Under the pieces are notes generated by a model. It saw only the letters and a list, made by a program, of their open reading frames with translations, had not been told where the DNA came from and did not search any database. Of a stretch of DNA of 64,000 nt, positions 18,299 through 31,770 are shown piece after piece; the first letter of the stretch is position 1; each line of letters begins with the position of its first letter. A program made the position numbers and the translations under genes. Origin of the DNA: a bacterium (lineage in GTDB: Bacteria > Cyanobacteriota > Vampirovibrionia > Gastranaerophilales > Gastranaerophilaceae); contig JAFXYZ010000062.1 of assembly GCA_017541465.1 (NCBI GenBank), positions 1-64,000 of the forward strand, given 5' to 3'.

Positions 18299-20290
18299 TT
18301 AAACAGGAATAAATACTCTGTATTGGTCGCTTCTGCCGCCAACACTTTTATAAATATTCTTCTGGTAGTGGTCGGAAATTTCACCGCCCTGGCCGTCTGC
18401 AATTGTAACATGTCCGTATTGTCTTCCGCCGCCACCGCTGTTTGCTGTATTTTCCCAGCATACAACCGCACCTGCGGGCAAGTTTCTAAGGTCATTTGAG
18501 GAAGGATAATCACTTGTTACCTCTGCAAACATACCTTGTGCAGCAAGTTTTTCCATATTTGTATCCCAATCGCAGCCGTTTCCGTTCATGCTTATTCCAT
18601 ACGCCATTTTAATGGTTCTGCTGACTCCTGTTGCACAGTAACCTGTTGAAGAACCGTATTTAGCGAGCATCTGTTTTGCAACTTCTACAAGTCTCTGACC
18701 TTCTTTCGCATCATAGGCCTCAACCGAATAATCTCTTTCAAGTTCGTGATTTGAATAATTATTGAGTGCAGTTTGGACTTTGTTTACATAAGCCTGAGAT
18801 TCTTCAACTCCTTTTTGTGCTTCAGAAATTTCTTTTGCCTGAGTGGTTTCATAAGTTGTTTTTGCATCATTATATTCTTTAAGCGCATCTGCCATTTCAG
18901 GATGTGCCTCAACAATTTTCTCTTCAAGCGCTTTCATCTGCTCGTTGAGTTTGGTAAGTCCGCCTTCACCATTTTCAAGTTCATCTTTATTTTTATTAAG
19001 TTTGTCTAAGTCTGCCTTGGCATCGTCCCACGCTTTTTTGGCGTTTTCTTCTTCCTTCTTCGCTGCAGGAATTTTATTTTGTTCCAGGTCATTAATTTTT
19101 TGAGTTATTTCGGCTTTTTTCTCATCGCTCATATCCGAAGTATCGGTTGCTTTGAGTTCCTGAAGCGAGCCTTCGAGAGTTTCTCTTGTTGAAACAGCGT
19201 TATTATATGCTGTTTCGCTTTCACTTACAGTCAATTCCTGCTGAGCAATTTGTTTATTATTTTCATCTACTTCGCTTTGTTTTTTGTCGATTGCCTGTTT
19301 TAATTTATCAACCTGCTCTGCCATACCCTTATCCGCTTCTTCAAGTTTTTCATGATAGGTATCATACGCAGTATTAATATTTTCTTTTAATGCGGCAAGT
19401 GTTGATGAAGAACCGTCAAGCGCCTGAGAAAGTTTTGTCTGGTTTTCCGTGAGTTTGCTGTTTGCGTTAGTGAGTTCCGATTTTAGTTCGGACTCGTTCA
19501 TCGTATCGAGTGTCTTTTCTTTCGGTTTATCATCACCGCCTGATGACGGGAAATGACTTCCGCCCGAAGATGATGAAGAAGAACTTCTCTGCTGAGTATC
19601 AACTCTTGCCTGAGTATCTGTCGGTTTTACTTCAGGTACTTTGCTTTCGGGAGTTTGTTCCTCGGGAGTTTCGGTGTCGGATTCCCTTGATGCCAGAATT
19701 TCTTCCGCCTTTGCAGTTGCGTTTTCCATAGCACCCAAAATATCTTCAAGCGAAACATCGTCTTTATTTCCGTCTATTCCGCTAATTTCCTCAAGATACT
19801 TTGAGATTTCCTCCTGACTTAGTGCGCCATCCTGGTCTGTATCTATAATCGTTTTAAAAGTATCTTCCGCAAATAAATTATTTAATAATTCCGCAATATC
19901 GTTTTGGTTATTTTCTTCTTCTTCGGCTGCCTCTTCTGTTTGCTCTTCTGACTGAGCAGAAAGCACTTCGGGAGTTTCAGGTGTTTCCGCTGCTTCTTCA
20001 TCCGCTTCAGCGGGAACAACCTCGTCCCCTGAAACCTCTTCAGGAACAACTTCTTCCGCAGTGGCATCAGGTATAACAAATTCGCCGTTTGCAAATTCAA
20101 GAGAGAGAATATCACCCATATTCATGGAAATCGGGTTTGTTGCATATTCGCTTTTGACATATTCCCTAAATTCTTCAGCATACTCAAAAATACTGATATC
20201 GTCCTGATTTAACTTATCAATATCAGTTTTATGATGTTTTTCAAGCCATCTGAAAAAACTTAATTTTACTGTAGGAAACCCCTGCGTCAT
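18299..20290 (-). CDS. Large EF-hand/coiled-coil protein with C-terminal CHAP-like peptidase domain
   Basis: This 663-residue protein has, in order: a short helical N-terminus; an acidic E/P/A-rich linker (about 75-130); a pair of EF-hand-like loops (DTDQDGALSQEE at 150-161, and IDGNKDDVSLED near 172-183); a serine-rich spacer (about 235-245); a long coiled coil (about 260-520); and a C-terminal domain with Cys552 (GYCATGVSR) and His627 (YGHVTIADGQGG). The Cys/His order and GHVTI fit a CHAP or NlpC/P60-type cysteine peptidase or amidase. It has no ordinary signal peptide. A role in cell-wall cutting or as a secreted hydrolase is inferred; secretion route unknown. Confidence 0.7.
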   Translation of the reverse strand: MTQGFPTVKLSFFRWLEKHHKTDIDKLNQDDISIFEYAEEFREYVKSEYATNPISMNMGDILSLEFANGEFVIPDATAEEVVPEEVSGDEVVPAEADEEAAETPETPEVLSAQSEEQTEEAAEEEENNQNDIAELLNNLFAEDTFKTIIDTDQDGALSQEEISKYLEEISGIDGNKDDVSLEDILGAMENATAKAEEILASRESDTETPEEQTPESKVPEVKPTDTQARVDTQQRSSSSSSSGGSHFPSSGGDDKPKEKTLDTMNESELKSELTNANSKLTENQTKLSQALDGSSSTLAALKENINTAYDTYHEKLEEADKGMAEQVDKLKQAIDKKQSEVDENNKQIAQQELTVSESETAYNNAVSTRETLEGSLQELKATDTSDMSDEKKAEITQKINDLEQNKIPAAKKEEENAKKAWDDAKADLDKLNKNKDELENGEGGLTKLNEQMKALEEKIVEAHPEMADALKEYNDAKTTYETTQAKEISEAQKGVEESQAYVNKVQTALNNYSNHELERDYSVEAYDAKEGQRLVEVAKQMLAKYGSSTGYCATGVSRTIKMAYGISMNGNGCDWDTNMEKLAAQGMFAEVTSDYPSSNDLRNLPAGAVVCWENTANSGGGGRQYGHVTIADGQGGEISDHYQKNIYKSVGGRSDQYRVFIPV

Positions 20291-20502: not shown

Positions 20503-23500
20503 TTATGCGGAAACCACCTCAACCTGCTTATCGCGGTAAACTTCAATACTGTCAAAGGTCATATCCTTATGAGTTTTATAGTATTCAAGTGCCTGCAAAT
20601 ACGCTTTTGCCGTATCAAGAACGGTGAAACAGGGGGTTGAATACATCTCTGCAATAGTTCTGATTAAGAAGCCCCTGTCCTCAGAGCCGTAACGGATTGA
20701 GTTGTTGTTAGTTGTCGGAGTATTGATAATAAAGCACAAATCTTTATTTTTCATATTCCTCTGCATCTTCTGAATATCGAATTTTTCGATTTCCTTCGAC
20801 TCAATTCCGTTCAGTTTGAGGAATTTATGGGTTCCCGTCGTTGCAATAAGGTGATAACCCAGTCGGACAAGAGTTCTTGCAACATCAACCGATGCCTTTT
20901 TGTAGTGGTCATTGATTGAAATAAGAACATTCCCCGTTCCCTCTTTGAAGGTATATCCCGCCGCAAGAAAGCCCTTCACAAGCGCTCTTTCATAAGTACT
21001 GTCGATTCCGAGGACTTCACCCGTTGATTTCATCTCGGGCGCAAGCGCAGGATCGATTCTGTTGAGCTTCTGGAAGGAAAATATAGGCACCTTCACGCAG
21101 ACCAGCGGTTTCTTCGGTAAAAGTCCGACAGGATAGCCCTGTTCAATGATTGATTTGCCCATAATCGCATCAATGCTGATTTTTACCATAGGAATATTTG
21201 TAACCTTGCTGAAAATCGGCACTGTTCTTGAAGCTCTCGGATTTACCTCAATAATATAAACCTTATCGTCCTTCATAACAAACTGAATGTTCATCAACCC
21301 TTTGATTTTGAGCTCTCTTGCAATTTTTGTCGCATAGTCAACAATGTTATTTATGATGTTCTGAGGAATATTTTGTGTCGGGTAAATCGCAATAGAATCA
21401 CCGGAGTGAACCCCCGCTCTTTCGATATGTTCCGTTATCGCAGGAATTAAAACATTTTCCCCATCGGAAACCGCATCAAGCTCAAGCTCTTTACCCTCAA
21501 TATACTGGTCTATCAAAATCGGGTGCTCATCTGAGAATTTAATAGCGCCTTCAATATAGGAAATAAGCTCATCTTTATTATAGACAACCTGCATACCCCT
21601 TCCGCCGATTACGTAAGAAGGACGGACAAGCAGCGGATAGCCTATTTCTTTTGCTACCTCCACCGCCTCGGACGGCGTTCTGACCGCAGCACCCTTCGGC
21701 TGAGGAATATTTAACTTTTTGAGAAGTTGCTCGAAGAGTTTTCTGTCTTCAGCTATATTTATTGATTCAAGACTTGTTCCGAGTATCTTAACACCTTGCT
21801 CGGCAAGTTTCGGGGCAAGATTAATTGCCGTCTGACCGCCGAACTGAACCATTACGCCCTCAGGGTTTTCTTTTTCAATAATATTCATAACATTTTCAAT
21901 GTTCATCGGCTCAAAGAAAAGTTTATCGGCAACATCAAAATCGGTACTGAGTGTTTCGGGGTTTGAATTGACAATTAACGACTTATACCCTGCCTTTTTG
22001 ACCTCCCAGGCTGCATGAACCGAGCAATAATCGAACTCTATCCCCTGACCTATCCTGATAGGACCTGAGCCTAAAATCAGAACGCTCTTTTGGTTTTTTT
22101 CGACAACATCCTCGTCTTTCTCGCCATAGGTCGAGTAATAATAAGGTGTATATGCCTCAAACTCTGCCGCGCAGGTATCCGCAATTTTGAAACTTGCGCT
22201 TATTCCGTTTTTCTTTCTGAGCTCTTTGATTTTGTCCAGAGGAATTTTTGTAAAATCTGCTATTTCCTTATCCAAAAACCCTTTTTCTTTTGCTTCAAGA
22301 TAGAGCGCAGGGGTTAAAGTTGTTGTTTTGATTGTGTTTTCAAAATCAACCAGCCCTTTTATCTTATAAATAAACCATTTGTCGATTTTTGTTATCTTTG
22401 AAATCTCTTCAACACTGATACCGCGGTTAAGCGCCTCGGCAACCCTGAAAATCCTTCTGTCATCCTGAACGTGAAGAAGAGCTTTAATTTCATCCTCGCT
22501 GCATTCAAGGTGCATAGGTCTTAAAAGCCCCGTATATTTGGATTCGATAGATGTTACCGCCTTTTTAAACGAACTTTCAAAGGTTCTGCCGATAGCCATA
22601 ACCTCACCCGTCGCCTTCATTTTGGTTCCTAAGATTCTGTCTCCGTGTTTAAACTTATCAAACGGCCATTTCGGAATTTTTGTAACGACGTAATCTATCG
22701 CAGGCTCAAAGGCTGCAACCGTTTTCTTTGTTATGGAGTTTGGAATTTCGTGGAGCATATAGCCGATAGCAATTTTTGTCGTAACTTTTGCAATAGGATA
22801 GCCCGTTGCCTTTGAAGCAAGCGCTGAAGAACGGCTTACTCTCGGGTTTACCTCGATTACATAATACTGATTACTCAAAGTATCAAGTGCAAACTGAACA
22901 TTACACCCGCCCTCAATCTTCAAAGCACGTATAATCTTAATTGCGGCAGACCTCAGCATCTGGCATTCTTTGTTTGTCAGGGTTTGAGTCGGCGCAACAA
23001 CGAAGCTGTCACCGGTATGAATACCGATAGGATCAATATTTTCCATATTGCAGATGACTATACTCGTATCGTTCGCATCTCTCATAACCTCGTATTCAAT
23101 TTCCTTATACCCTGCGATACTTTTCTCAACAAGGATTTGGGAAATCGGGCTGAGCGAAAGTCCTGTATAAACAATATCTTCATACTCATCAAAGTTATTG
23201 GCAATACCTCCGCCCGTACCGCCTAAGGTATAAGCAGGTCTGACGATTATCGGGAAGCCTATCTTCTGGGCAAATTTCTTTGCGTCCTCAAGGTTTGAAA
23301 CAATATCACTCTCGGGAATAGGCTCACCTATTTCCTTCATAAGGTTTTTAAACGCCTCTCTGTCCTCCGCTTTTCTGATAGAATCTATCTGAGCACCCAA
23401 AAGCGCAACTCCGTATTCCTTCAGAACCCCTTTTTCATTCAGCGCAACCGCAAGGTTTAAGCCCGTCTGACCGCCTAAGGTTGCAATAAGCCCGTCAGGA

Positions 23501-23745
23501 CGCTCTTTTGAGATTATATAAGTCAAGGATTCCATCGTCAGCGGTTCTATATAGACCTTATCGGCTATGTTCTCATCCGTCATAATCGTTGCAGGGTTTG
23601 AGTTTACAAGAACAACCTTTATCCCCTCTTCTCTTAGCGCTCTGCAGGCCTGAACACCAGCATAATCAAACTCCGCAGCCTGACCGATTACAATCGGGCC
23701 CGAGCCTATAACCAATACTTTTTTGATATTTTTATTTAACGGCAT
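20503..23745 (-). CDS. carB: Carbamoyl-phosphate synthase large subunit
   Basis: CarB makes carbamoyl phosphate from bicarbonate, ATP and ammonia delivered by CarA. The 1080-residue length is normal. Two homologous ATP-grasp halves are visible, each opening with the P-loop-like SGPI.IGQ..EFDY (residues about 14-27 and again near 550-563), and EVNPR..RSSALASKATG appears with its second-half twin EVNPRASRTVP. The C-terminus is the MGS-like regulatory domain (NDHYKKASVDVARTLVRLGYHLIATTGT), where UMP or ornithine bind in other species. It lies 12 bases after the pyrF-carA fusion and is the last large gene of the pyrimidine operon. Confidence 0.97.
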   Translation of the reverse strand: MPLNKNIKKVLVIGSGPIVIGQAAEFDYAGVQACRALREEGIKVVLVNSNPATIMTDENIADKVYIEPLTMESLTYIISKERPDGLIATLGGQTGLNLAVALNEKGVLKEYGVALLGAQIDSIRKAEDREAFKNLMKEIGEPIPESDIVSNLEDAKKFAQKIGFPIIVRPAYTLGGTGGGIANNFDEYEDIVYTGLSLSPISQILVEKSIAGYKEIEYEVMRDANDTSIVICNMENIDPIGIHTGDSFVVAPTQTLTNKECQMLRSAAIKIIRALKIEGGCNVQFALDTLSNQYYVIEVNPRVSRSSALASKATGYPIAKVTTKIAIGYMLHEIPNSITKKTVAAFEPAIDYVVTKIPKWPFDKFKHGDRILGTKMKATGEVMAIGRTFESSFKKAVTSIESKYTGLLRPMHLECSEDEIKALLHVQDDRRIFRVAEALNRGISVEEISKITKIDKWFIYKIKGLVDFENTIKTTTLTPALYLEAKEKGFLDKEIADFTKIPLDKIKELRKKNGISASFKIADTCAAEFEAYTPYYYSTYGEKDEDVVEKNQKSVLILGSGPIRIGQGIEFDYCSVHAAWEVKKAGYKSLIVNSNPETLSTDFDVADKLFFEPMNIENVMNIIEKENPEGVMVQFGGQTAINLAPKLAEQGVKILGTSLESINIAEDRKLFEQLLKKLNIPQPKGAAVRTPSEAVEVAKEIGYPLLVRPSYVIGGRGMQVVYNKDELISYIEGAIKFSDEHPILIDQYIEGKELELDAVSDGENVLIPAITEHIERAGVHSGDSIAIYPTQNIPQNIINNIVDYATKIARELKIKGLMNIQFVMKDDKVYIIEVNPRASRTVPIFSKVTNIPMVKISIDAIMGKSIIEQGYPVGLLPKKPLVCVKVPIFSFQKLNRIDPALAPEMKSTGEVLGIDSTYERALVKGFLAAGYTFKEGTGNVLISINDHYKKASVDVARTLVRLGYHLIATTGTHKFLKLNGIESKEIEKFDIQKMQRNMKNKDLCFIINTPTTNNNSIRYGSEDRGFLIRTIAEMYSTPCFTVLDTAKAYLQALEYYKTHKDMTFDSIEVYRDKQVEVVSA

Positions 23746-23757
23746 TTTTTATTTCCT

Positions 23758-25590
23758 TTATACTTTCAAAATTGTTTTATCCATTGAGCTAACCCAGTCA
23801 TAGAAAATGGTATTTGTGTCATAAGGCCCTGAAGCACGCTCGGGGTGGAACTGTACGGTTTCAATGTTGTATTTTTCGCACTTGAGCCCCTCTATCGTGC
23901 CGTCATTGAGGTTTTTATAGGTAACTCTGACACCCTCGGGAAGCGAATTTTCATCAACCGCATAACTGTGATTCTGGCTTGAAATATAGACTTTATTTGT
24001 TTCAAGATTTATAACAGGGTGATTTCCTCCTCTGTGTCCGTATTTCAGCTTATAAGTATCAGCGCCCAGCGCCAGAGCAAGGATTTGGTGACCTAAACAA
24101 ATTCCGTAGAGTTTGATTTTACCTAAAAGCTCTTTTGCACATAGGATTGCGCACTCAACATCTTTAGGATTGCCCGGGCCGTTCGAGAACAGTACCGCAT
24201 CAAAATTGCCTTCCAAAAGTTCTTTTGAACTGACATCGGCAGGAAAAATCGTTATATCGCAATTCAGTTCCTTCAAATCGGAAATTATACTCTTCTTAAC
24301 CCCAAAATCAACAAGCGCAAGTTTTGCACCGCTCCCCGCAATTCTTTCCGTTTTATAGGTTGTAACCTCCTGAACGATATTTCTGTTCGGCTCATACTTT
24401 TCGAGTTCTTCCTTGAGCTCTTTTGTTACAGGGCCTGTCGTCATAACGCATTTCATAGAACCGTAATCTCTTATAACCTGTGTCAGCCCCCTTGTATCAA
24501 CGTTGCTTATTCCTATGATATTATTTTGTTTTAAATAGTCAGAGAGGGAACAAATGCTCTTGTAGTGCGACTCATGGGCGCAGATATTTTTGACAATCAA
24601 ACCTCTGACGTAAATCTTTCCGCTCTCTGAATCCTCTCTGTTTATCCCGTAGTTTCCGATTTCGGGGTAGGTCATTACGACCATCTGCTGAGAATAAGAG
24701 GGATCGGTCATAATTTCCTGATAGCCGACCATTGAAGTGTTGAAAACCAGTTCCCCGAAAGAAGTTGTATCCGCACCAAAAGATTCACCCTCAAATATCA
24801 TACCATTTTCGAGCAATATTTTAGCTTTTGAAGTCGAATAAGACTCGTTTTGGGTTAAAATAGCATTTTCAATTTCGTCATAAATTCTCTGAATGGCTTC
24901 AAGTCTGTTTTCGGCTGAGGTAACGGCTCTTCCGATAACAAGATAATCAGCACCCTCTTTTATTGCGGCTTTCGGAGTTGCAAGTCTCTTCTGGTCGTTG
25001 CTCGATGCCCATTCAGGTCTTATACCCGGGCAAAGCACTTTAAAATCTTTACCGCAAATCTGTTTAATCTGTTTTGCTTCCCAGACACTTGCAACAACCC
25101 CGTCAAGCCCGCTTCTCTGGGCATTCAGAGCTAAATTAAGCGCATAATCAGTGGTTTTATATGAAACTTTCAGTTCAGAAGAGAGCATTTCTTCATTGAT
25201 ACTGGTTAAAAGTGTAACCGCAAGTATTGTAGGAGCGGGTTTTCCGAGCTCTTCAGCCGCCTTCTTTGCCGCCTGAACAGAGGCCTTCATCATCTCGCTT
25301 CCGCCCATCGCGTGTATATTAAAGAAGGTCGCGCCGTTTCTTACGACGTTCTCTGAGGCTTTTGCAACGGTGTTCGGAATATCGCAGAGTTTTATATCAA
25401 AGAAAAACTTGATATTCTGCTCGTTCATGAACTTAAAAATCTCACCGCCGTTTGCCGTATAAAGCTGGAGACCGACTTTAAATACCCCGACATAGTCCTT
25501 TAGTTCCATTATCATTGCTTTTGCATCATCAATATTATCAACATCGAGCGCAAGTACAATCTTTTCCTTAATTTTTTCGTTTATTTTCAT
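23758..25590 (-). CDS. Fusion: orotidine-5'-phosphate decarboxylase + carbamoyl-phosphate synthase small subunit
   Basis: One 610-residue frame encodes two pyrimidine enzymes. Residues 1-245 are PyrF: LALDV at 13-17, catalytic DIKLCD at 65-70 (Asp65, Lys67, Asp70) followed by IPNT, and GIRPEW and VIGRAVT. Residues about 255-610 are CarA: an N-terminal domain (LLENGMIFEGESFG, NTSMVGYQEIMTDPSY) and a class I glutaminase with Cys498 in GICLGHQ and His582/Glu584 in VQFHPE. A ten-residue linker (TQNESYSTSK) joins them, with no stop, frameshift or internal start seen. It joins the last step of UMP synthesis to the glutamine-using half of the first. The frame overlaps pyrC by four bases. Both active sites look intact. 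Confidence 0.95.
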   Translation of the reverse strand: MKINEKIKEKIVLALDVDNIDDAKAMIMELKDYVGVFKVGLQLYTANGGEIFKFMNEQNIKFFFDIKLCDIPNTVAKASENVVRNGATFFNIHAMGGSEMMKASVQAAKKAAEELGKPAPTILAVTLLTSINEEMLSSELKVSYKTTDYALNLALNAQRSGLDGVVASVWEAKQIKQICGKDFKVLCPGIRPEWASSNDQKRLATPKAAIKEGADYLVIGRAVTSAENRLEAIQRIYDEIENAILTQNESYSTSKAKILLENGMIFEGESFGADTTSFGELVFNTSMVGYQEIMTDPSYSQQMVVMTYPEIGNYGINREDSESGKIYVRGLIVKNICAHESHYKSICSLSDYLKQNNIIGISNVDTRGLTQVIRDYGSMKCVMTTGPVTKELKEELEKYEPNRNIVQEVTTYKTERIAGSGAKLALVDFGVKKSIISDLKELNCDITIFPADVSSKELLEGNFDAVLFSNGPGNPKDVECAILCAKELLGKIKLYGICLGHQILALALGADTYKLKYGHRGGNHPVINLETNKVYISSQNHSYAVDENSLPEGVRVTYKNLNDGTIEGLKCEKYNIETVQFHPERASGPYDTNTIFYDWVSSMDKTILKV

Positions 25591-26870
25591 TTTTCTGCCT
25601 TACAATCAAATATTTTACCTTTAATTATTGTTTTTACCGCTCTCCCGGTTAATTCCATGCCGTCAAACGGTGATATTCTGCATTTTGACACAAACTTAGA
25701 AGCATTAACAGTCCATTTTTCGTTTAAGTCAATAACCGTAAGATTTGCGTCCTGCCCAACTTCAATATTTCCCTGCCCTTTTATGTTAAAAATTTCAGAA
25801 GGGGAAGAGGTCAGTTTAGATATAGCCTCTGAGAGGGTTAATCTGTTTTTGTGTACAAGGTTTGTGAGAGTCAGCCCGAGCGCCGTTTCAAACCCGACAA
25901 TTCCCATGGGCGAATTTTGAATGGGAAGTTGTTTTTCGTGGACTTTATGAGGCGCGTGGTCGGTCGCAATTATATCAATAGTGCCGTCTTTGAGCCCTTC
26001 AACAATTGCGTTTAAATCTTCATTTGTCCTCAGAGGAGGGTTCATCTTAAACCTTGCATCATAAGGGAGCATGTCGTCTTGTGTCAGACTGAAGTAATGA
26101 GGAGCGGTTTCGCAGGTAACTCTTAGCCCATCTTTCTTTGCCTGCCTTATTAATTCAACACTTCTCTTTGTTGAAATATGCGCAAAATGGTATTTGCACC
26201 CTGTTTCTCTTACTATCTCGAGCTCTCTTGCAACCGCGATACTCTCTGCAAGATAAGGTATTCCTTTCAGCCCCAGTTTAGCGCTGATTTCACCCTCGTT
26301 AATAACTCCGCCTCTTGCAAGAGAAGAATCTTCGGAGTGAGAAATAATAAATGAGCCCAGAGAATTGATATATTTAAGCGCACACCTGAGTAAATTCAAA
26401 TCTTCAACGGGCTTTCCGTCATCGGAAAAAGCAACCGCACCGCCGTCAATCAGCTCTGAAACATTTACTATATTTGTACCTTCAAGGTTTTTGGTAACCG
26501 CACAAATCGGATAAAAACCGATTTCAGCCACTTCTTTTGCCTTTGCAAACATATAAGAGAGTGTCATAAGGTTATCATTAACGGGTTTTGTATTTGCCAT
26601 CGGACAAATGCCCGTATATCCGCCCTGAATAGCAGAGAGAATACCTGTTTTAATGGTTTCCTTTGCGTTATATCCGGGCTCTCTCAGGTGACAGTGAACA
26701 TCTACGAGCCCGGGGGTAATGACAAGCCCCGAAAAGTCGTGTGTTTCCTCGTTTTCCTGAGGTGATATACCCTTTGAGATTTCAGATATTTTACCGTTTT
26801 CAATTCTTATATCTGAAATCCCATCAAATTTGGTTTTGGGATTAATAATTCTTGCGTTTTTAAGAAGCAT
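25587..26870 (-). CDS. pyrC: Dihydroorotase
   Basis: PyrC cyclises carbamoyl-aspartate to dihydroorotate. This 427-residue protein is of the longer class I type, with the zinc motif DVHCHLREPG at about 57-66, the ATDHAPH motif near 305-311 and GFETALGLTLT. It overlaps pyrB upstream by 11 bases and the fusion gene downstream by four, the sign of a tightly coupled operon. It is cytosolic. All metal ligands expected from the motifs are present, so an inactive pseudo-dihydroorotase is unlikely. Confidence 0.96.
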   Translation of the reverse strand: MLLKNARIINPKTKFDGISDIRIENGKISEISKGISPQENEETHDFSGLVITPGLVDVHCHLREPGYNAKETIKTGILSAIQGGYTGICPMANTKPVNDNLMTLSYMFAKAKEVAEIGFYPICAVTKNLEGTNIVNVSELIDGGAVAFSDDGKPVEDLNLLRCALKYINSLGSFIISHSEDSSLARGGVINEGEISAKLGLKGIPYLAESIAVARELEIVRETGCKYHFAHISTKRSVELIRQAKKDGLRVTCETAPHYFSLTQDDMLPYDARFKMNPPLRTNEDLNAIVEGLKDGTIDIIATDHAPHKVHEKQLPIQNSPMGIVGFETALGLTLTNLVHKNRLTLSEAISKLTSSPSEIFNIKGQGNIEVGQDANLTVIDLNEKWTVNASKFVSKCRISPFDGMELTGRAVKTIIKGKIFDCKAEK

Positions 26871-27786
26871 AATGAGCCTCGCTTCCTTCTTTTAAGAGCT
26901 TATTCAGTATCGCCATTCGCACAAACACACCGTTTTGCGCCTGCTCAAGAATAGTTCTGCCGATTTTGTTATCAAGAAGCTCGGAGGAAACCTCTATATT
27001 TCTGTTTGCAGGCCCTGGGTGCATTAAAATCACGTTCGGCGAAGCATACTCTTTTAAGAGTTTTGAATCAACCTCATACAAGCGTTTATACTCGAAAGAA
27101 TCTGGGAAAACCTCGTATTCGAGCCGTTCATTCTGAACGCGCAGAAGCATAACAATATCAGCATCTTTTATTGCGGTTTTTAAATCTCTGTGGACCGTTG
27201 CCTTAAAGCACTCTGTATTTTCAAATGCCAGATATTCGGGTGAGCAAAGGTGAATATCAGCACCGAATTTAGAAAGCAGCGCTATATTTGACCTTGCAAC
27301 CCTTGAGTGTTTAATATCGCCGACTATAACAACTTTTTTACCCTCAACCGAGCCTGTTTTTTCAAGCATAGTATAAAAATCAAGAAGTGCCTGGGATGGA
27401 TGCGCGTGGCTTCCGTCACCTGCGTTGATAAAACTTATAGGATATTTCACCTGAGCTCTTGTGTTCTCGACAATACCCGCGAGCGAATGGCGGATAACAA
27501 CCGCATCAACACCCAGGTAGTAAAGGTTTTCGATAGTATCCTTCAGAGATTCACCTTTTGAAAGCGAAGAACTCTTTGCCTCAAAGTTTATGACGTTCGC
27601 CCCGAGTTTTTTTGCGGCTATCTCAAAACTGCACCTTGTTCTCGTTGAATTTTCATAAAACATCAGAGCAACCGTCTTGCCCCCGACCTCCGACTGAGCG
27701 GAATTTGCTTTAAACTTTTTCGCTAAGTCAATAATTTCAAGGATTTCTTCTTTTGAAAGATGTTCTATGTCGGTTAAATGTTTCAT
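26860..27786 (-). CDS. pyrB: Aspartate carbamoyltransferase catalytic subunit
   Basis: PyrB condenses carbamoyl phosphate and aspartate, the committed step of the pathway. The carbamoyl-phosphate loop NSTRTRCSFE lies at about residues 46-55, with SSLSKGESLKDT, HPSQALLD and HPGPANR following. The 308-residue length is typical. No pyrI regulatory subunit gene is nearby. It starts one base after pyrE ends and overlaps pyrC by 11 bases. Confidence 0.96.
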   Translation of the reverse strand: MKHLTDIEHLSKEEILEIIDLAKKFKANSAQSEVGGKTVALMFYENSTRTRCSFEIAAKKLGANVINFEAKSSSLSKGESLKDTIENLYYLGVDAVVIRHSLAGIVENTRAQVKYPISFINAGDGSHAHPSQALLDFYTMLEKTGSVEGKKVVIVGDIKHSRVARSNIALLSKFGADIHLCSPEYLAFENTECFKATVHRDLKTAIKDADIVMLLRVQNERLEYEVFPDSFEYKRLYEVDSKLLKEYASPNVILMHPGPANRNIEVSSELLDNKIGRTILEQAQNGVFVRMAILNKLLKEGSEAHYAS

Positions 27787-28365
27787 TTAAGCCTTAACTC
27801 CTTTTTCGGTTCTGCTCCCCGGTTTAACGAGAGGTACATTTTCCCTGCAAAGAGGGCAATTATCGGGCTCATAGACAACAGGCGACATCTGAAGAAGTGA
27901 TTTGATGTTAAACTCGGTCTTTCCATCGGTTCTGTCAACTATGCAGCCGACCGCCGCTATTTCGCAGCCAAAATCTTTAATCGCCTCTTTTGTTTCCTTA
28001 ATCGTTCTTGCGGTAGTAATTACATCTTCAATAATGACAACCTTTTCGCCCTTCTGAAGGGTATAACCTCTTCTTAATTGCATCTCCCCGTCTTTTCGCT
28101 CAACAAACAAATTCCTTTTTCCTGCCTGCTTTGCGGTTTCATAACCGATTATAACCGCACCTATCGCGGGAGCAACTATCGTATCAAATTCAACATCTTT
28201 AAGTTTTTCAGCGAGCATCTTCCCGAGTTTTTCAACAATTTCAGGATATTGATAGAGTTTTGCACACTGAAAATATATATTTGAATGAAGCCCCGAGGTA
28301 AGGCAAAAATGCCCGTGGAGTACCCCCTCAGCCGATTCTAAAAGTTCTAAAACATCATTGTTCAT
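27787..28365 (-). CDS. pyrE: Orotate phosphoribosyltransferase
   Basis: PyrE joins orotate to PRPP, giving OMP. The PRPP-binding motif VVIIEDVITTARTI and FVERKDGEMQLRRGY are clear in this 192-residue protein. The C-terminus carries DNCPLCRENVPLVKPGSR, a Cys-containing tail found in one long PyrE subgroup. It sits between pyrD (11-base overlap) and pyrB (no gap). Confidence 0.95.
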   Translation of the reverse strand: MNNDVLELLESAEGVLHGHFCLTSGLHSNIYFQCAKLYQYPEIVEKLGKMLAEKLKDVEFDTIVAPAIGAVIIGYETAKQAGKRNLFVERKDGEMQLRRGYTLQKGEKVVIIEDVITTARTIKETKEAIKDFGCEIAAVGCIVDRTDGKTEFNIKSLLQMSPVVYEPDNCPLCRENVPLVKPGSRTEKGVKA

Positions 28366-29287
28366 TGAAGCACGTCCTTATCTTATTCTTTAAATCATCT
28401 AAATCTTTGAAATTATTCTTTATGATATACTCTCTGAGCTCGTCCTGAAGTTTTTTTGCAATGTCAGGATAAGTGAAATTGGCAGTGCCGATTTGAATTG
28501 CGTCAGCACCGACCGCGAAGAATTTAAGCATATCTTCAAGTGTATAAATTCCGCCCATACCGATAATCGGGAGGTCAACCGCCTGCCTTATTCTGTTCAC
28601 CATAGAAAGTGCAACGGGCTGAATCCCAACTCCCGAGTACCCGCCCTGAACTTTGGTCTTTCTGAATTTGCCGTTTACGAGTTCAAATTTGACTTCAAGC
28701 CCTTTTAAGGTGTTAATGGCGCTTATGCAGTCCGCCCCCGCACGTTTGCAGGCAAGCGCAAGCTCTTCTATAGAGGTTACATTCGGGGTTAATTTAACTA
28801 TCAAAAACCCGTCATAGTTTTCTCTTACCTTTGAAACCAGATTATAAAGACTGTCAGCGGAAACACCGAACTCCAGACAGCCTGATTTGACGTTCGGGCA
28901 TGAAACATTGAGTTCAATGGCTTTTATGTTATTCTGAGAGCAAATTTCACCGAGCAGCGCGTATTCTTCCATACTTGAGCCTGCAATATTCATTATAAAA
29001 TCAATGTTTTTCGCTCTCAGGACGGGAAGTTTTTTTTCTAAAAACCCTTCAATTCCGAGGTTTTCAAGCCCGATAGAGTTAATCATGCCCGCCTGCGTTT
29101 CAATTATTCTTGTGTGTTTGTTGCCTTCTCTTGGCTTCAGGGATATTGCTTTTGTTACAATAGCGCCGATTTCGGACACATCAAGAAAATCATCGTATTC
29201 ATCAGCATAGCCGTAAGTCCCCGATGCCGTAAAAACGGGGCTTTTAAAGGTCAAATGAGCGAGTTTTGTCTGAATTATATTTTCCAT
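28355..29287 (-). CDS. pyrD: Dihydroorotate dehydrogenase, class 1B catalytic subunit
   Basis: PyrD oxidises dihydroorotate to orotate on FMN. The class 1 active-site cysteine is in ELNVSCPNVKSG, and the FMN-binding barrel ends in GMGGIYTLEDMLKFFAVGADAIQIGTA. The 310-residue length fits. Class 1B enzymes need PyrK, and pyrK overlaps it directly upstream by 13 bases, so this is the NAD-linked heterotetrameric type. Confidence 0.96.
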   Translation of the reverse strand: MENIIQTKLAHLTFKSPVFTASGTYGYADEYDDFLDVSEIGAIVTKAISLKPREGNKHTRIIETQAGMINSIGLENLGIEGFLEKKLPVLRAKNIDFIMNIAGSSMEEYALLGEICSQNNIKAIELNVSCPNVKSGCLEFGVSADSLYNLVSKVRENYDGFLIVKLTPNVTSIEELALACKRAGADCISAINTLKGLEVKFELVNGKFRKTKVQGGYSGVGIQPVALSMVNRIRQAVDLPIIGMGGIYTLEDMLKFFAVGADAIQIGTANFTYPDIAKKLQDELREYIIKNNFKDLDDLKNKIRTCFNEQ

Positions 29288-30030
29288 ACGACCTCACTCC
29301 CTTTAAAGACAGGCCCATCCTTGCAGACAGAAGCATTTTGAACTTGTCCTTCTTTAATCACATCAATTACACAACCCCGGCAAACACCGATTGAACATGC
29401 CATAACCTTTTCCATAGAAACCTGAGCTTCAATACCCAGCTCTTTAGCGAGTTCTGAGGACTTTTTCAAAACTATCAAAGGTCCGCAGGAATAGATTATT
29501 TCGGGATTAAATTCTTTCACTTTTAAGCGCGCAAAATCAATGACGTTAGATTTTATCCCGTTTGAACCATCGTCTGTTACAATAAAATCACTGTTTAAGC
29601 ATGAAGGAATATCGTCTTTATCACGAAATCCCGAAATAAGAAGGCTTTCAATACCTCTTTTTTCAAGCTCTGTTTTCAAATAAGAAACAGGAGCAACCCC
29701 GGCGCCTGCACCGATTAAGAGAGCTCTTTTGTTTTTAATCTCAAACCCGTTTCCAAAGGGTCCCGAGAAATCGACAATATCATTCTCTTTTAATGACGTC
29801 AGATATTTTGTTCCCTTCCCTATTTCTCTGAACAGTACAGAGACAGTGTTTCCGTCATTTTGATAAATGCTGAACGGACGGCGAAGAGTTCTTTCACAAA
29901 AGATTGAAATAAACTGCCCTGCCGTTGAAACAAAAGAAGTTTCACTCTCAAGTTCAAGCAGATAAATGTCCTTTGAACATTTTTTGAGATTTTTAACTAT
30001 TCCTTTGTGTATTTTCTTGTGTTCAGCCAT
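29275..30030 (-). CDS. pyrK: Dihydroorotate dehydrogenase electron-transfer subunit
   Basis: PyrK carries electrons from PyrD to NAD+ through FAD and a [2Fe-2S] cluster. This 251-residue protein has the FAD motif RRPFSIY (about residues 51-57), a nucleotide domain (LIGAGAGVAPVSYL) and the cluster motif CSIGVCRGCVIDV with a fourth Cys in SVCKDG near the C-terminus. It is the first structural gene of the operon, about 140 bases after the predicted start of transcription. AAGGA lies rather far (about 13-15 bases) before the ATG. Confidence 0.95.
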   Translation of the reverse strand: MAEHKKIHKGIVKNLKKCSKDIYLLELESETSFVSTAGQFISIFCERTLRRPFSIYQNDGNTVSVLFREIGKGTKYLTSLKENDIVDFSGPFGNGFEIKNKRALLIGAGAGVAPVSYLKTELEKRGIESLLISGFRDKDDIPSCLNSDFIVTDDGSNGIKSNVIDFARLKVKEFNPEIIYSCGPLIVLKKSSELAKELGIEAQVSMEKVMACSIGVCRGCVIDVIKEGQVQNASVCKDGPVFKGSEVVWKI

Positions 30031-30086: not shown

Positions 30087-30116
30087 AAAAAAAAAGAAAC
30101 AGTAATGTTTCTTTTT
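30087..30116 (-). terminator. Leader terminator / candidate attenuator upstream of pyrK
   Basis: On the minus strand AAGAAACA, loop TTAC and TGTTTCTT are followed by about ten T. It lies some 55 bases after the predicted start of transcription and 57 before pyrK, so it can end pyr transcription early. It could also simply end transcripts arriving from the prepilin gene upstream. Confidence 0.65.
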
Positions 30117-30127
30117 CTTGATTATAT

Positions 30128-30157
30128 TCAACTTTTAATATACTTCTTTGTTCTCAT
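30128..30157 (-). other. Possible nine-codon leader peptide ORF
   Basis: ATG at 30157 encodes MRTKKYIKS then stop, between the pyr promoter and the leader terminator. Only a weak purine-rich site precedes it. Such an ORF could couple translation to attenuation, but chance is a real alternative. Confidence 0.2.
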
Positions 30158-30178: not shown

Positions 30179-30207
30179 ATTATCGTTCCAACAGAAAAAG
30201 AAGTCAA
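30179..30207 (-). promoter_or_regulatory. Predicted housekeeping promoter of the pyr operon
   Basis: On the minus strand TTGACT (30207-30202), a 17-base spacer and GATAAT (30184-30179). Transcription would start near 30172. This is the clearest -35/-10 pair in the region. Confidence 0.65.
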
Positions 30208-31621: not shown

Positions 31622-31770
31622 AAACGATTTAATTCCTGAATTGTTTATATTAGAATGATTCTGTAAGGAAACAAGGGTGTAATTCCCTGACCGGGACGCG
31701 GCCGTTAAAGTCGGAATGCTTACAGACTTAGTTCGCGTTCCCGAGAACCGAAATTTTAAGTATGTTGAGT
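31622..31770 (+). ncRNA. Candidate structured leader RNA / riboswitch-like aptamer, class unknown
   Basis: Successive paired elements are visible. A first hairpin has arms 31622-31629 and 31639-31646. A closing stem TCTGTAAG / CTTACAGA (31660-31667 with 31719-31726) encloses AGGG-loop-CCCT (31674-31688) and GACCGG..CGGCCGTTAAAGTCGG. Then comes TTCG-c-GTTC-ccga-GAAC-CGAA (31732-31752). Stretches such as AGGGTGTAATTCCCTGACC and GTTAAAGTCGGAATG recall FMN-riboswitch core sequence, but the element is about half the size and lacks other conserved arms. It leads directly into a hairpin that hides the next gene's ribosome site. No class is assigned. Confidence 0.5.

Follow-up and report, generated by a model that had tools for sequence, protein, structure and literature searches.

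A PyrF–CarA fusion protein in the pyrimidine operon of gut Gastranaerophilales

It is in the window, meaning here the whole stretch of 64,000 nucleotides that was analysed, where a single minus-strand gene joins the last enzyme of UMP synthesis, the OMP decarboxylase (OMPDC or PyrF), to the glutaminase subunit of the first one, the small subunit CarA of carbamoyl-phosphate synthase (CPSase), and judged by its sequence this gene encodes a true PyrF–CarA fusion carrying both active sites. The pairing is real and conserved in related genomes, and it is apparently undescribed, no account of a PyrF–CarA fusion having been found in the freely available papers searched. We consider it likely that the product works as a bifunctional chain, with OMPDC at the N-terminus followed by a CPSase small subunit expected to bind CarB, that it arose in two events by replacement of the pyrF/carA junction with a linker, and that the joining would serve the 1:1 co-assembly of both enzymes.

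The fused gene and its operon

The fusion gene runs from position 25590 down to 23758 on the minus strand as a frame of 610 codons, from its ATG to one terminal stop, encoding a protein of 610 amino acids with a computed mass of 67.5 kDa, and the plus strand of the same interval has many stops in frame 1. The OMPDC domain (residues 10–236, 24883..25563, minus; Pfam OMPdecase and Foldseek 1dbt_B) carries the catalytic residues D65, K67 and D70 in the DxKxxD catalytic motif of OMP decarboxylases, and the PyrF half scores 252.9 bits against NCBIfam PRK00230, whose curated cut-off is 193. A linker follows (residues 243–254, 24829..24864, minus), conserved in the clade of groups g1, g41 and g32, with neither a stop nor a start codon having a ribosome site. 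Beyond it lie the CPSase small-chain N-terminal domain (residues 259–382, 24445..24816, minus; Pfam CPSase_sm_chain) and a class-I glutamine amidotransferase domain (residues 426–596, 23803..24315, minus; Pfam GATase and Foldseek 1cs0_B), in which the catalytic C498, H582 and E584 align with C269, H353 and E355 of E. coli CarA; the CarA half scores 441.3 bits against TIGR01368 (cut-off 307.35). The original prediction had claimed an uninterrupted PyrF–CarA frame with two intact active sites, and both claims are borne out, the first by translation together with the Pfam and NCBIfam matches of the two halves, and the second by the presence of all six residues it named (D, K, D, C, H and E at positions 65, 67, 70, 498, 582 and 584).

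An AlphaFold2 model of the fusion, built with 44 sequences, has two well-formed domains (mean pLDDT 86.9, pTM 0.58), and in Foldseek its halves match E. coli CarA (1cs0_B) and B. subtilis OMPDC (1dbt_B). The last OMPDC helix of the model extends over residues 229–250 and thereby spans most of the linker, and residues 248–252 have a pLDDT below 50; this low value and the pTM leave the relative orientation of the two domains unfixed by the model. The halves share their fold, active-site residues and family models with bacterial OMPDC (1dbt_B, 1eix_A) and E. coli CarA (1cs0_B), although these are separate proteins, unlike the fusion.

The fusion stands sixth in an operon that encodes every step of UMP synthesis, pyrK-D-E-B-C-(F-carA)-carB, and that extends from 30030 to 20503 of the window with intergenic gaps of −13 to +12 nt and AAGG-like sequences upstream of most of its starts. 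The order on the minus strand is a pyrK-like gene for the electron-transfer subunit of dihydroorotate dehydrogenase (29275..30030, its best model scoring below the curated cut-off), followed by pyrD, dihydroorotate dehydrogenase (28355..29287), pyrE, orotate phosphoribosyltransferase or OPRT (27787..28365), pyrB, aspartate carbamoyltransferase or ATCase (26860..27786), and pyrC, dihydroorotase or DHOase (25587..26870), these four assigned by family models, and then the fusion and, directly 3' of it, the cognate carB for the CPSase large subunit (20503..23745), with 1511.7 bits to TIGR01369. Downstream of carB, a 663-residue protein (18299–20290, minus) has an EF-hand-like stretch and, at its C-terminus, a weak match to CHAP that narrowly misses the Pfam cut-off. 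On the plus strand, an AdoCbl-II riboswitch match (31651–31729, 39.4 bits with a cut-off of 36.5) is closely followed by an ORF at 31762.

Ahead of pyrK, the minus strand has a promoter-like TTGACT-N17-GATAAT (30179..30207, a consensus match only), a 9-codon leader ORF read from the sequence as MRTKKYIKS (30128..30157) and, just after the end of this ORF, an intrinsic terminator found by a perfect-stem scan between the promoter and pyrK (30091..30116). Perfect-stem terminators precede pyrK in 51 of 58 upstream regions, the window included, compared with 8 of 1160 dinucleotide shuffles, and in 48 of the 58 a short ORF ends near the terminator; a stricter rule, by which the ORF has to begin at the first ATG that follows the best-scoring promoter, is satisfied by 29 of 51 regions vs. 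269 of 2550 in the control. No Rfam family matched the leader region ahead of pyrK. A leader ORF and an intrinsic terminator placed between a promoter-like site and the first gene correspond to E. coli pyrBI, which has a leader peptide and an intrinsic terminator before its pyrimidine genes (PMC5021804 and PMC4824070), and probably the region works as a pyrBI-like attenuator of the whole operon, conserved in relatives. The layouts differ in part: the pyrBI terminator is inside its 135-bp leader gene, whereas the leader of the window is far shorter, ends before the hairpin and, unlike pyrBI, precedes a whole-pathway operon.

The fusions already known in this pathway pair OMPDC with OPRT (PMC2705460) and CPSase with ATCase (PMC3155505). 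UMP synthase (OPRT–OMPDC) and the reverse OMPDC–OPRT resemble the present fusion in joining OMPDC to another pyrimidine enzyme and in their independent origins, but the partner in UMP synthase is the preceding enzyme PyrE, which is a separate gene in the window, whereas here it is the CPSase small subunit, from the opening step of the pathway. Similarly, CAD and the CPSase–ATCase fusions include the glutaminase part of CPSase in a multifunctional pyrimidine protein (PMC3155505 and PMC6022934), but they join CPSase to the next steps, ATCase and DHOase, whereas in the present protein CarA is linked to the final step, CarB is separate, and pyrB and pyrC are also genes of their own. The proposal that this pairing is unlike CAD and UMP synthase is therefore upheld.

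Distribution and origin of the fusion

Among 383 genomes surveyed from Gastranaerophilales, an order placed by NCBI taxonomy in Candidatus Melainabacteria, the full-length fusion was found as one frame without a stop in 35, namely the window's own genome (G000, group g1), G031 (g32), G019 (g20) and 32 genomes of g41. The 35 matched genomes of g41 include, besides these 32, G342 with its frame broken inside CarA, and G396 and G397 (90% and 84% complete), each with a single match whose strength is accounted for by the other PyrF alone; in g20, G055 has the fusion without the GATase domain. A second set of 80 loci retrieved from GTDB contigs, largely of the same species as the survey, has both domains in one frame in 37 loci (36 full-length and L190 broken in CarA) and split genes in 43. 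Many of the related genomes are MAGs from rabbit, ruminant or chicken gut, and among the matches listed by score from 386 genomes of the phylum, none outside family f1 had a fused frame. Two loci, L179 and L205, are labelled Heliobacteriaceae and Fusobacterium, yet their fusion or operon genes closely match Gastranaerophilales, and these are probably mislabelled MAGs.

The original prediction had suggested looking in relatives for split genes, and pyrF and carA are indeed separate in many: of the 70 loci around carA that were read, 9 are fused, 52 have the two genes as neighbours in the same operon order, and 9 have carA away from pyrF. The split relatives have the ancestral order pyrC-pyrF-carA-carB, and in most of them the junction is either a TAATG-like overlap or a gap of some tens of nucleotides; three junctions are longer (G014, G050 and G008). 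Given that pyrF and carA were already neighbours in an ancestral whole-pathway operon, the fusion simply joined adjacent genes. Exactly one in-frame stop is found at the pyrF/carA junction in 11 of the 70 loci (4 of g33, 1 of g36 and 6 of g21); these eleven (L054–L064), at first taken as fused because their matches spanned both domains, are really two genes in one frame that a lone stop separates, either a single step short of fusion or possibly subject to readthrough. At L072 and L074, both of g15, the match to PyrF is separated from that to CarA by a partly repetitive stretch of 193–313 nt.

A tree of eight concatenated operon proteins, with 36 rows and made by a quick method, brings g1, g41 and g32 together with a support of 100 and places g20 elsewhere, grouped with g50, g33, g19, g10 and g29, and the AU test rejects all fused rows as a single clade (p-AU 6.8e-07), thus ruling out a single origin of that kind. 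The linkers of g1, g41 and g32 share the motif LLTQNKSYAxS with small changes, the linker of G019 reads ALNKKPFKIHYAKP, and that of G055 is different again. Because the operon trees separate the fused groups and the linkers are unrelated, two fusion events are the simplest reading, one in the ancestor of g1, g41 and g32 and another separately in g20. One fused ancestor followed by two or more later splits is possible, but it needs more events and leaves the different linkers unexplained.

Catalytic sites kept and lost

The OMPDC catalytic residues are intact in all 36 fused rows, and the glutaminase residues are not kept in three of them, where the C, H and E positions read GHD in L175, CYE in L177 and GHE in L178; L175 and L177 are titled as goat gut genomes, and L178 as Cyanobacteria bacterium SIG29. 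Among split relatives, five have lost the Cys and His of CarA, these being G377, G352, G222 and G238 (g21) and G041 (g3), and the residues are intact in 73 of the 80 rows of that CarA set, in 42 of the 43 split rows of the GTDB-contig loci, the remaining row being cut by a contig end, and in all of 20 further CarAs. Taken together, split and fused loci with a loss of Cys and/or His are L064, L140, L141, L142, L143, L175, L178 and L177 (the same as L052). This pattern may reflect repeated evolution towards an ammonia-type CPSase, in which case the lineages lacking the site may use ammonia. In G055, an uninterrupted frame of 1491 codons (L066:3771-8243, G055:C22, minus) encodes PyrF–CPSase_sm–CarB without GATase, and it could possibly be an ammonia-dependent trifunctional chain, or else an assembly join.

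Since the glutaminase site is lost in some fused lineages, what is conserved in the fusion is something other than glutaminase activity. A catalytic Cys or His is gone from three of the 36 fused rows and the OMPDC residues are kept in every one, which means that the pair of activities is not invariably retained, and this, along with the neighbour origin, narrows the idea of a union of first and last enzyme.

What the joining may do

In the bifunctional chain that we favour, the stop/start junction of neighbouring pyrF and carA would have been replaced by a short linker in gut Gastranaerophilales, the N-terminal OMPDC and the C-terminal CarA would both be active in one chain, and the CarA half would bind CarB. 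OMPDC is a dimer, and because of this its usual dimerisation would tether two CarA–CarB pairs, with the main effect being a fixed 1:1 supply and co-assembly of OMPDC and CarA. Direct channelling is unlikely because OMP and UMP are not CPSase substrates, and any purpose of the joining, whether the joint feedback or fixed stoichiometry that the original prediction proposed or a local UMP sensing, is a guess.

A less likely alternative is a real fusion in which both halves work and the joining has no effect, adjacent, translationally coupled genes having run together and being hard to separate again. The immediate adjacency and short junctions in most split relatives would agree with this, as would the many split relatives that also lack OTCase and manage unfused, and the unrelated linkers of the two events. 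What speaks against it is that the fused state persists in 32 of 35 g41 genomes and that the linker is under constraint: in 37 sequences, residues 243–253 have a pN of 0.114, with 43% of the gene's 11-codon windows equally or more variable, and a pN/pS of 0.20 (bootstrap 0.07–0.41), compared with 0.15 for PyrF and 0.20 for CarA. By these measures, the linker is as constrained as the domains in the g1, g41 and g32 clade, a constraint that could reflect folding alone. Regarding OTCase, 33 of the 383 genomes overall have one over the cut-off, and none was found in G000 or elsewhere among the 37 genomes with a full or partial fusion, so the CPSase of G000 probably serves pyrimidines only. We discarded OTCase loss as the cause of the fusion, given that many split relatives are also without it; such a loss permits the fusion and does not explain it.

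The bolder reading, local UMP feedback, we regard as doubtful. It supposes a self-sensing complex that evolved twice, in which the OMPDC dimer holds two CPSase units and UMP would hit the site of the bound CarB before mixing with the pool, going further in g20 with a PyrF–CPSase_sm–CarB chain that would run on free ammonia. In E. coli CPSase, UMP acts as an inhibitor at the C-terminal end of CarB, with Thr977 and Lys993 as important residues (PMC6245113). By alignment, the window's CarB has the equivalents of T977, K993, Ser948 and Thr1042; of 10 fused rows compared, all have T977, 9 have S948 and 7 have K993. With these UMP-site residues kept, UMP feedback is to be expected whether the genes are fused or not.

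It is very improbable that CarA is also, or only, made separately, either from an internal start at Met264 or because the linker is cleaved. An internal start and a missed stop in the linker were the two findings that the original prediction named as able to overturn it; no stop is present there in any of the 36 full-length fused relatives, and the sole widely common ATG is that of Met264, present in 36 of 38 fused sequences examined, with no Shine-Dalgarno-like sequence upstream, unlike the annotated operon starts. Moreover, split CarAs at the G054 and G321 junctions have an ATG at the equivalent place, so this is a native codon; it lies between the first two strands of CarA, so that a start there would remove the first strand; and the linker itself has no common start codon.

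Slightly less credible still is the view that the fused OMPDC acts only as a tether while a standalone PyrF does the decarboxylation. Second PyrFs with intact catalytic residues do exist in G000, G031 and G048, that of G000 (G000:C18:84787-85530, L109) being 44% identical and apparently intact, so that the fused OMPDC may be dispensable in that genome. Nevertheless, the fused rows have all kept their OMPDC residues, and the standalone PyrFs form in the tree an old separate clade with an Ala in 16 of 21 rows at the position of Gly189 of the operon PyrFs; members of this clade also occur where no match to pyrB or pyrE was obtained, for example in G001, G005 and G006, which suggests another role. 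No other PyrF at E ≤ 0.001 was found in g20, in either G019 (95% complete) or G055 (92% complete), the other PyrF-search matches of G019 falling in the amidotransferase region, and there the fused OMPDC is probably functional and probably the sole OMPDC. As for an assembly or sequencing artefact, which the predominance of MAGs among the related genomes might suggest, its probability is negligible, because it is refuted in practice by the recurrence of the same open frame across dozens of genomes that were assembled separately and have diverged in their DNA.

With this fusion, the short list of pyrimidine-pathway fusions gains an odd pair, the last enzyme plus a subunit of the first. The two apparent origins, the in-frame neighbours separated by one stop and the split relatives constitute a natural series on why operon neighbours fuse, and the lineages where no other PyrF was found provide a clean setting for studying how the fused protein functions. 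Local UMP feedback, if true, would be a new wiring of end-product inhibition.
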